Of a stretch of DNA of 64,000 bases, positions 25,814 to 28,364 are shown in pieces. The position numbers and the translations under genes are program-made. The notes beneath the pieces were generated by a model. It saw nothing but the letters and a program-made list of their open reading frames with translations. It searched no databases and was not told where the DNA came from. The number at the start of each line of letters is the position of its first letter. The first letter of the stretch is position 1. This stretch comes from Thermoplasmatota archaeon (GTDB lineage Archaea; Thermoplasmatota; Penumbrarchaeia; Penumbrarchaeales; Penumbrarchaeaceae), in NCBI GenBank assembly GCA_029762535.1, contig JARVGK010000008.1:1-64000 (forward strand), given 5' to 3'.

Positions 25814-27280
25814 TCAAACCCGTTTCAATACCTTGACCTCCAGGTCGGAATATACCAGTTCCAGACCGGGGATCCCCTCCCCCTTCCAGATCCTGTGGAT
25901 TACAGTACTCTTTCCAAGATCCGTCAAAGTATTCGTTTCCCAGTTGATGTATTCACTTGGGTCCTTTCCGGCACCAAGAATGAGAGCATACAGAATCGAG
26001 TATTGTTGTCTAGCGGTCGTGAGGAGATAGGTTGCATTATTCTGGCCCATCAAGTTCAAGGTAACCGAAGGATCTGTTGTGATCAATCCCAGAGAAACAT
26101 CCCTTAATCTGATCTCATCTTCTTCCCATTCCTCGACTGAAGAGGGATCCCATAAAGTTTGTTCGATATACCTTGAAGGTTTATCGATCACAACATCCAA
26201 TCCAGTATAGCCTTCAATGCTATAACCAAGGTCCCACCACGCGAATACAACCTCGCCTGGGTTTGAATTATTCAGCAACCATTGAGCAGCACCTTGTATA
26301 CTCGGATTAAAGAAGTGTGTTACCTCCTCACCATTCTCTTTGTAGATGATCTTGTAAGCTGTATCCATGTAAGGTCCGTGACCATTCCAGACTTCTATCC
26401 TGACTCCTGGCCTTACATGGATCGTCTCAAGTAGTTCGTTCTGTTCGAAGGTCCTATCCTCCCTGTTCATGTCATGATCGAAGAGTCCTATTGAAAGAAG
26501 TCCAATTAGGATAAGGAACACGATGCCTGTACTCAAAGCGAGCGTTTGCCCTCTCTTTCGGTACCTGATAATCCTACCCGGGTCTTCCTCCTTTACCTCA
26601 AGTATCCTCCTGAACCTGTCGAAGAGGGGGGGGAAAACTAAGAAGGCCAAGATCGGGACGATGGAGATCGCCCCTACCACAAGGTTGTTCGGGTATGACC
26701 AGAGATCGTAGCCGAGTTCCCATTCTATAACCTGCTGGAGGATCCCTCCCAATATAGCTGCCACGATTGAGAAAACAGATATTATTAACGTCAAGTGACC
26801 GAGGTATGATATTTTTGTCGTACTGCGAAGTTGCATGATCGAGAGCGTGCCCAATGTTATTCCTAACACGCCGTAAACCGCGCCTATTGAGAGTGCTCCC
26901 CAGAAATAACCATGATCGGTGTATTGCCAAATTGCCTCCCAGTAAGCATCCCTGAAGTAGAATGCCATTATGAGAATATCGAGTACGGCTATGAAGATAC
27001 AGTATGAGAGAATGGCTTTGATTGTTAAAGGGGTCTTGATCTTCATATCCTTCCGGTACTCACCAGCCACTTCGAAGGGATTTCCGAAGTCTTTCAGGGC
27101 CTCCCGGACCGTCCTCTCGTCGGGTCTGTCCAGACCCCGATCCTTCGCAGCATCCATGGTTCTATCCTTGATATGGGCGCGGATCTCGTCAAGGGCAGTT
27201 TTTCTCGCTTTGGGATCCAGCCCGAACAGCTCCGAGTCGATCCTCTTCAGATAATCATCTACGATATTTTCTATTCTCAT
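25814..27280 (-). CDS. HAAS domain–5 TM–STT3/AglB C-terminal-like fusion protein
   Basis: 488 residues. The N-terminal 80 residues (IVDDYLKRIDSEL, ALDEIRAHIKDRT, VREALKDFGNPFEVAGEY) match the HAAS/DUF1700 module found with PadR regulators. Five membrane spans lie between about 83 and 280. The remaining 200 residues, outside the membrane, have AAQWLLNNSNPGEVVFAWWD followed by LGYSIEG, resembling the WWDYG region that binds the sequon in archaeal oligosaccharyltransferase AglB, and later NATYLLTTARQQYSI. The catalytic 13-span half of AglB is absent. Its start overlaps the PadR stop (ATGA). Function unknown. Confidence 0.72.
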   Translation of the reverse strand: MRIENIVDDYLKRIDSELFGLDPKARKTALDEIRAHIKDRTMDAAKDRGLDRPDERTVREALKDFGNPFEVAGEYRKDMKIKTPLTIKAILSYCIFIAVLDILIMAFYFRDAYWEAIWQYTDHGYFWGALSIGAVYGVLGITLGTLSIMQLRSTTKISYLGHLTLIISVFSIVAAILGGILQQVIEWELGYDLWSYPNNLVVGAISIVPILAFLVFPPLFDRFRRILEVKEEDPGRIIRYRKRGQTLALSTGIVFLILIGLLSIGLFDHDMNREDRTFEQNELLETIHVRPGVRIEVWNGHGPYMDTAYKIIYKENGEEVTHFFNPSIQGAAQWLLNNSNPGEVVFAWWDLGYSIEGYTGLDVVIDKPSRYIEQTLWDPSSVEEWEEDEIRLRDVSLGLITTDPSVTLNLMGQNNATYLLTTARQQYSILYALILGAGKDPSEYINWETNTLTDLGKSTVIHRIWKGEGIPGLELVYSDLEVKVLKRV

Positions 27281-27651
27281 AATTCAACCCCCGCATTCTT
27301 CAACATATCTGATACCAGTTCGTTTATGAATTTCCACTCCTTAAGACAGATCTCAAAGGCTTTCCTGCCCTGGGGAGTGATCTCGTAATATTTCCTTCTG
27401 GGACCGGTCTTCGAGTCTCCCCAATAGGTTTTCAGAAACCCTCTTTCTGAGAGCTGGTTCAAGATAGGATAGACCGTTCCCTCGGGAAGGGAATATCTTC
27501 CCCCGCTGTAGGACGCCAGATTATTGATGATCCTGTAGCCGTAGGTTGGATCTTTCTCTGAGCCGATGGTTGCGAGAAGGAGAAATGAGAGCAGTCCCGA
27601 CTTCATCTCCTTCTCGAACTTGTTCTTGAAGACTTCAAGGTCTCGATCCAT
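27277..27651 (-). CDS. PadR family transcriptional regulator
   Basis: 124 residues. The PadR winged helix is clear: LLATIGSEKDPTYGYRII, then YSLPEGTVYPILNQLSERGFL and RRKYYEITPQGRKAF. A C-terminal helix for dimerisation follows. The stop overlaps the HAAS-fusion start by four bases, so the pair is coupled; PadR–HAAS pairs are common and the PadR usually represses its own operon. Intergenic 27652-27882 holds its promoter, with nothing else recognised. Confidence 0.9.
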   Translation of the reverse strand: MDRDLEVFKNKFEKEMKSGLLSFLLLATIGSEKDPTYGYRIINNLASYSGGRYSLPEGTVYPILNQLSERGFLKTYWGDSKTGPRRKYYEITPQGRKAFEICLKEWKFINELVSDMLKNAGVEL

Positions 27652-27882
27652 ATAATTACCTCGATGAACAAGGTATGTAGAGGTTCGAGGTAGTATTTTT
27701 AGGTTTCTCTCTCGTGTAATTGAAACAATACAATGACACCAAGAAGCATGGTGAAGGGATCACCTCGCACCCGATCAAGGCTATGGCCCCCGTCCATTAT
27801 CAGAGAAAAACTGTCCTAAAAGACACATCAAACGTGAATTGGAGGAGAAAAGAATATTAACTATATTTTATTATAGTTGGCT

Positions 27883-28113
27883 ATGGTAGTGCCTTTGACC
27901 ACGACGATCCAGATCTCCGAAGAACTGCAACAGGAGCTTGTCAATAAGAAACTCTATCAGAAAGAGACCTACGAAGAGGTCATATGGAGCCTTCTGGAGG
28001 ACACCAGGGAGCTGTCCGAAGAGACAAAAAGAGAGATAGCAGAGGCCAGAGAGGAGATCAGAAAGGGTAAGTTCCACACGCTCTCCGACGTCAAGAAAGA
28101 GCTGGGACTATGA
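27883..28113 (+). CDS. RelB-like antitoxin
   Basis: 76 residues from ATG 27883 (a TTG two codons earlier is possible). N-terminal TTTIQISEELQQELVNKK is a ribbon-helix-helix-like start; the rest is a charged helix rich in Glu and Lys that would wrap the toxin. It precedes a RelE gene with an ATGA overlap (28110-28113), the usual antitoxin-toxin order. TATA-like AT-rich sequence lies at 27851-27874. Confidence 0.8.
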   Translation: MVVPLTTTIQISEELQQELVNKKLYQKETYEEVIWSLLEDTRELSEETKREIAEAREEIRKGKFHTLSDVKKELGL

Positions 28114-28364
28114 CATATCAGATCATTTTCTCCGATCGAGCCTTCAAACAGTTGAAGAAGTTGGACCGAAACACCCAAGAGAGGATCATATCCTCTCTGG
28201 AGCGCATCAGGATCCGTCCTGAGCATTTCATCACCAAACTGGTTGGGGATCCAGGTTATAAATTGAGGGTCGGGGACCACAGGATAATTCTCGATCTGGA
28301 TAACCATATGTTGCTGATATTGATCATCAAGGTGGGGCATCGAAAGAACATCTACGATAGATAG
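28110..28364 (+). CDS. RelE/ParE family toxin
   Basis: 84 residues. Typical RelE fold: YQIIFSDRAFKQLKKLDRNT, then PGYKLRVGDHRIILDL and a terminal strand ending VGHRKNIYDR. Conserved basic residues (R54, R59-type positions in LRVGDHR, and HRKNIY) suit an mRNA interferase. It forms a type II toxin-antitoxin module with the preceding gene. Confidence 0.88.
   Translation: MTYQIIFSDRAFKQLKKLDRNTQERIISSLERIRIRPEHFITKLVGDPGYKLRVGDHRIILDLDNHMLLILIIKVGHRKNIYDR

Follow-up and report, generated by a model that had tools for sequence, protein, structure and literature searches.

A PadR-family regulator and a membrane protein that joins an N-terminal HAAS domain to an AglB-like outer domain are encoded at 25814-27651 (minus strand) of the window, the whole 64,000-nucleotide stretch of Thermoplasmatota DNA that we analysed. 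This confirms the observation made in the initial annotation. We moderately favour the reading that the two proteins act as a signalling pair of the HAAS-PadR type, with an orphan copy of the oligosaccharyltransferase's acceptor-binding core serving as sensor. Supporting this reading are the domains and the overlap of the two genes, the fold of the tail, the recurrence of the fusion in a second genome, the orphan family around the tail, a second coupling to helix-turn-helix (HTH) genes, the retained pocket and the charge pattern of the membrane part. The presence of a catalytic AglB elsewhere in most genomes with an orphan domain, and the grouping of the tail with the orphans and AglB-S, also speak for it.

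The stand-alone PadR-like wHTH gene directly adjoins the HAAS gene, its stop overlapping the start of the HAAS protein (Table 1). This agrees with the earlier view of HAAS as the usual partner of PadR. In a full-length AlphaFold model, the HAAS domain formed four helices (residues 3-17, 23-47, 55-65 and 68-77; pLDDT ~90), and its G66 and P68 are invariant. The membrane part was modelled as five long helices, with low confidence there. Counting Lys and Arg residues, we find 19, 1 and 9 in the N-terminal part and the inside loops and 0 in the two outside loops. With HAAS inside and five spans, the tail is therefore inferred to lie outside the cell, as the positive-inside rule, the odd number of spans and the location of the enzyme's STT3 domain indicate. 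The 488-aa protein gave no match to PF02516, the 13-span catalytic half of STT3/AglB/PglB with its DXD motifs, and it has five spans only; the catalytic half is thus absent, as had been proposed.

Table 1. Features of the PadR operon (window positions) and HTH-coupled fusions in other genomes (locus positions).
Feature	Position	Strand	Basis or remark
PadR-family winged-helix regulator, 124 aa	27277..27651	-	Pfam PadR PF03551, E 1.1e-22
HAAS - 5 TM - STT3C (AglB-S-like core) membrane protein, 488 aa	25814..27280	-	4-bp overlap of its start with the PadR stop
HAAS domain, residues 9-72, GxP = G66-N-P68	27065..27256	-	Pfam HAAS PF22564, 8.5e-9, over cut-off
Five predicted transmembrane helices, residues ~85-268	26477..27028	-	model helices, hydropathy, charge
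Predicted extracytoplasmic STT3C domain (AglB-S central-core unit plus N-terminal beta hairpin), residues 283-488	25817..26434	-	AF2, Foldseek, hhalign
WWDLG motif, residues 348-352, first part of Ser/Thr pocket	26225..26239	-	WW 28/28, D 27/28 in orphan family
QYSILYAL, DK/MI equivalent, residues 426-433, Ile429 at second signature position	25982..26005	-	alignment; motif definitions PMC3703281
8-bp perfect inverted repeat TACCTCGA-N20-TCGAGGTA	27657..27692		candidate operator, closely upstream of PadR start
HTH gene, then MGWCP(DUF1673-like)-TM-STT3C fusion	L060 1195-2939; L086 6760-7991; L087 5360-6585		
HTH gene, then MGWCP(DUF1673-like)-TM-STT3C fusion	L088 upstream of 7585; L094 5844-7527; L095 5359-7012		

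Pairs of PadR with HAAS (HTH-associated alpha-helical signalling domain) have been put forward as a counterpart to two-component systems, with HAAS relaying the signals of its fused domains to PadR (PMC11237479). The window pair resembles this dyad in its adjacent PadR, its N-terminal HAAS with GxP and its multi-span membrane part. The fusions named in the portion of that paper drawn on here are FtsX/MacB, FtsW/RodA, PspC, LiaI-LiaF, Toastrack, VanZ, pentapeptide and uncharacterised 2/4/6-TM types; an oligosaccharyltransferase domain is not among them.

We find that the tail is a remote member of the STT3/AglB core, placed by structure and profile comparison and not by a Pfam threshold. The single sequence gave a sub-threshold match to the STT3/PglB/AglB core (E 0.0034; 18.3 bits versus a cut-off of 23) and E values of 0.07-0.7 against STT3 entries of the PDB. 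Because this single-sequence match is weak, the AglB-like claim needs more than one sequence. A profile of three sequences reached STT3 with an E of 3e-6, while Pfam STT3-PglB_core (18.3-21 bits against the curated cut-off of 23) and AglB_core-like (best 7.4e-5, among the relatives) stayed below their curated cut-offs. Performing profile-profile comparison with hhalign, we aligned the three HAAS tails nearly end to end with the C-terminal domains of catalytic AglB-S-like enzymes of 560-620 aa (E 5.9e-9); eight orphan domains reached 5e-13 against the same domains.

Modelled by AlphaFold with eight homologues, the tail gave a pLDDT of 79 (90-97 across much of the core) and a pTM of 0.77. All of the best 27 Foldseek matches in the PDB were STT3, AglB, PglB or DPY19, and the closest in whole domain and size was AfAglB-S2 (3vu0; E 2.4e-6, target-normalised TM 0.74-0.76). 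The predicted fold thus agrees with the AglB globular domain, as the initial annotation had suggested. AfAglB-S1 and S2 have nothing beyond the central-core unit (PMC3703281), and the same holds for the window tail as modelled. With these Archaeoglobus fulgidus proteins (3VGP, 3VU0; PMC3703281) it shares the minimal core fold, the WWD and the Lys/Ile pocket position. Unlike them, the window protein has no 13-span catalytic half, carries HAAS and five unrelated spans, and has Ile in place of Lys.

The enzyme accommodates the +2 Ser/Thr of the sequon in a pocket made up of WWD and the second residue of the DK/MI signature, which is Lys or Ile (PMC3703281). The 28 orphan domains that we aligned keep the WW throughout and the D in all but one, so the predicted conservation of WWD among homologues holds. 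The rest of WWDYG is looser (Tyr in 23 of 28, Gly in only 10), and the window copy reads WWDLG. At the aligned second DK/MI position (column 429) we find Lys in 19, Ile in 5, Leu in 3 and Tyr in 1, that is, Lys or Ile in 24 of 28. Many orphan relatives show the textbook DxxKxxx[MI], such as DIWKFPAI, DVYKFKAM and DEIKAAWM. The window sequence QYSILYAL has Ile429 second, with Gln first and Leu third (motifs DxxKxxx[MI] and MxxIxxx[IVW], on the kinked helix). The Lys of E-x-K-V-R-D-V after WWD was rejected as the DK lysine, the DK/MI equivalent being the later helix with DIWKFPAI or QYSILYAL.

The few Tyr and Leu replacements and the one missing D run counter to the sensor reading. These replacements, together with the often altered YG, would fit a plain structural outside domain that binds lipid, sugar or metal and keeps the motif as an inherited relic. 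We hold this to be very improbable, since W348, W349 and D350 rank with the best-conserved columns, and none of the 166 columns is more restricted to Lys/Ile than column 429 when weighted over seven sequence clusters (91%, against a column mean of 13%); relics would drift. The earlier suggestion that the tail senses sequons, or competes with AglB, and reports to PadR is consistent with this apparently retained Ser/Thr pocket and with the second HTH coupling described below.

Searching the genome contigs with the single tail sequence gave no matches; the orphan relatives were obtained with the three-sequence tail profile. Orphan proteins of ~200-440 aa with the whole domain occur in Bathycorpusculum, Methanophagales and Methanosarcinales, and also in additional genomes from these phyla. 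The family spans at least three archaeal phyla, uses various membrane anchors and is always non-catalytic. It includes a one-span type (L031-L033, L081, L082), a different one-span type (L083-L085) and lipoproteins with a lipobox-like start (L089, L090, L092, L097-L099). No further STT3C orphans were found in four other genomes of the class of G027, the second genome with the fusion. In a tree of 64 core domains, which has several long branches and an inner order that is not resolved, the orphans grouped with AglB-S-like enzymes and apart from the long AglBs (93/81 support). The orphan-domain family around the window tail is new here. Our search of open-licence papers turned up neither orphan STT3 cores nor a PadR/HAAS-STT3C fusion, a combination that the initial annotation had called unfamiliar; novelty is thus not proven.

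Most orphan relatives are lone single-span proteins or lipoproteins without a neighbouring regulator, and the domain is therefore useful without transcription. This would suit a membrane protein that is itself the effector, PadR merely setting its level, with a core that, for example, holds unglycosylated or unfolded surface proteins or presents them to AglB; the retained pocket residues would suit it too. We consider this unlikely, though a serious contender. A HAAS fusion would be superfluous for an effector alone, HAAS is already known as PadR's signalling partner (PMC11237479), and six fusions in other archaea set the STT3C domain behind a different HTH gene. Side observations on the family include lipoprotein-like STT3 cores in at least three lineages with no regulator seen alongside, and an orphan STT3C lipoprotein gene split into two overlapping frames (L096 7362-8076).

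A catalytic AglB is encoded elsewhere in 20 of the 22 genomes with an orphan domain, the two misses being small assemblies. The window genome's own AglB is a 2520-aa protein on another contig (C11; L026 6736-14298), laid out as an STT3 half, a diverged core, many CarboxypepD_reg/SdrD-like repeats and CARDB; G027 has a similarly long AglB frame of 2371 aa. The window tail is separate from this AglB in the 64-core tree. An origin of the tail as a displaced fragment of this AglB was rejected, the long form grouping elsewhere.

At the apparently equivalent place, the own AglB reads NTGIFYAP, Ile-type as is QYSILYAL in the tail. Comparing the pocket types of sensor and enzyme within each genome, we found the two to be preferentially of one type (Fisher p 0.013; 20 genes, typed by eye). 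This co-typing is only suggestive, because the test takes no account of relatedness and the two G027 copies differ in pocket type, one being of each. The seeming match, the shared domain type and the presence of AglB in the same genome would all be expected of a protein that binds or competes with AglB, as a dominant-negative or regulatory subunit whose tail senses AglB occupancy and not free peptide. We regard such a role as quite improbable. The tail does not derive from the genome's AglB with its long insertions, and the lipoprotein versions lack spans for docking on the enzyme.

The search for further HAAS proteins with such tails, proposed at the outset, gave two full-length relatives of 24-28% identity in G027 (Euryarchaeota archaeon M_DeepCast_200m, contig VGTL01000057; 37 genomes were searched first), which belongs to another family of the same phylum. 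There, one PadR gene is flanked by two copies, in the order HAAS-TM-STT3C, PadR, HAAS-TM-STT3C. These two further copies led us to reject an assembly chimera. A 318-aa protein in G010, matching over residues 1-188, was discarded as a relative; it has no tail and is an ordinary HAAS protein. Altogether, the fusion was present in 2 of 390 sampled genomes of the phylum, namely the window genome and G027.

In a sister genus of the window genome (G003) the neighbourhood is kept (GCV-T, GCV-H, AAA_14/DUF4143 ATPase and DUF362), and the syntenic place holds a decayed 33-codon remnant of the gene end, 52% identical (L027 5451-5552). Because it is rare and decayed there, the gene is dispensable and has been lost in the sister genus. 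The PadR operon has as neighbours a ParE-type toxin gene, GCV-H and the DUF4143 ATPase, and no glycosylation gene adjoins it. Divergent from the operon, the window carries at 27883-28364 (plus strand) a small ORF of ~76 aa, likely an antitoxin by position, and then the ParE-type toxin gene.

A second kind of coupling came from six genomes, in which an STT3C domain is fused to an MGWCP-type membrane part (Table 1). In all six fusions an HTH gene lies directly upstream, overlapping or a few bases apart. Its product is a protein of ~148-174 aa with the pattern FWxLRRxxxxNxxIAxxxxISRQAVSKAL and weak HTH Pfam matches. The six share only the MGWCP-like start; Pfam DUF1673 on L094 was sub-threshold (1.4e-5; 25.6 bits versus a cut-off of 30.4), and a DUF1673 search in nine genomes returned the known fusion only. 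The tail's relatives thus carry an N-terminus of the type known from the DUF1673/arCOG06827 MGWCP membrane proteins of Methanosarcina (PMC4158269) behind an HTH gene; the window protein, unlike these, has HAAS and no MGWCP part. Because neither this HTH regulator nor the MGWCP part shows a sequence relation to PadR and HAAS, the outside STT3C domain has been coupled to transcription factors on at least two occasions, in two unrelated ways.

Upstream of PadR lies a BRE/TATA-like GAAACC-TAAAAATA, its TATA-like element at 27694-27701. The inverted repeat comes directly after it and flanks the expected transcription start of the PadR operon. The repeat is compatible with autorepression; it is a weak operator candidate, because by our own estimate ~0.16 such repeats are expected by chance in the region searched upstream of PadR.

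Returning to the signalling pair, we assume that the outside domain probably binds sequon-like peptides. The core would bind peptides with a hydroxyl residue at +2, such as unglycosylated N-X-S/T or exposed stretches of surface proteins; an enzyme-linked equivalent of such a peptide is an alternative ligand. Occupancy of the core could be passed through TM5 to HAAS and alter the hold of HAAS on PadR. PadR might then release or grip its operators, its own operon included, and the output would be an adjusted glycosylation or envelope capacity. Peptide binding by the enzyme also involves its transmembrane half, so the isolated core may bind peptide weakly. The rarity and dispensability of the gene, the absence of an adjoining glycosylation gene and the statistical weakness of the candidate operator also count against a sensor.

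We know of no archaeal sensor of N-glycosylation state. We put forward, tentatively and as a doubtful extension, that the catalytically empty cores form an archaeal family of outside receptors for unglycosylated sequons, wired independently to PadR (via HAAS) and to another HTH regulator (via MGWCP) for transcriptional quality control of surface-protein N-glycosylation. In the window protein, the part of the glycosylation enzyme that reads the acceptor is combined with what would be a one-step transcription switch. Residues W348, W349, D350 and I429, along with a defined repressor, make the sensing of S-layer under-glycosylation in archaea testable. The tail also offers a ready-made soluble system in which acceptor recognition can be studied separately from catalysis.

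Further observations concern the surroundings and matches of single orphans. Methanophagales have a 2TM-domain (PF13239) gene immediately ahead of the single-span STT3C gene or genes (L031 574-921; L032 3022-3330), with a tandem STT3C arrangement in L032. The orphan core at L030 147-854 was matched by NCBIfam HaoB (hydroxylamine oxidation protein, TIGR04392; 1.1e-4), and an STT3-like core may be present in bacterial HaoB too.
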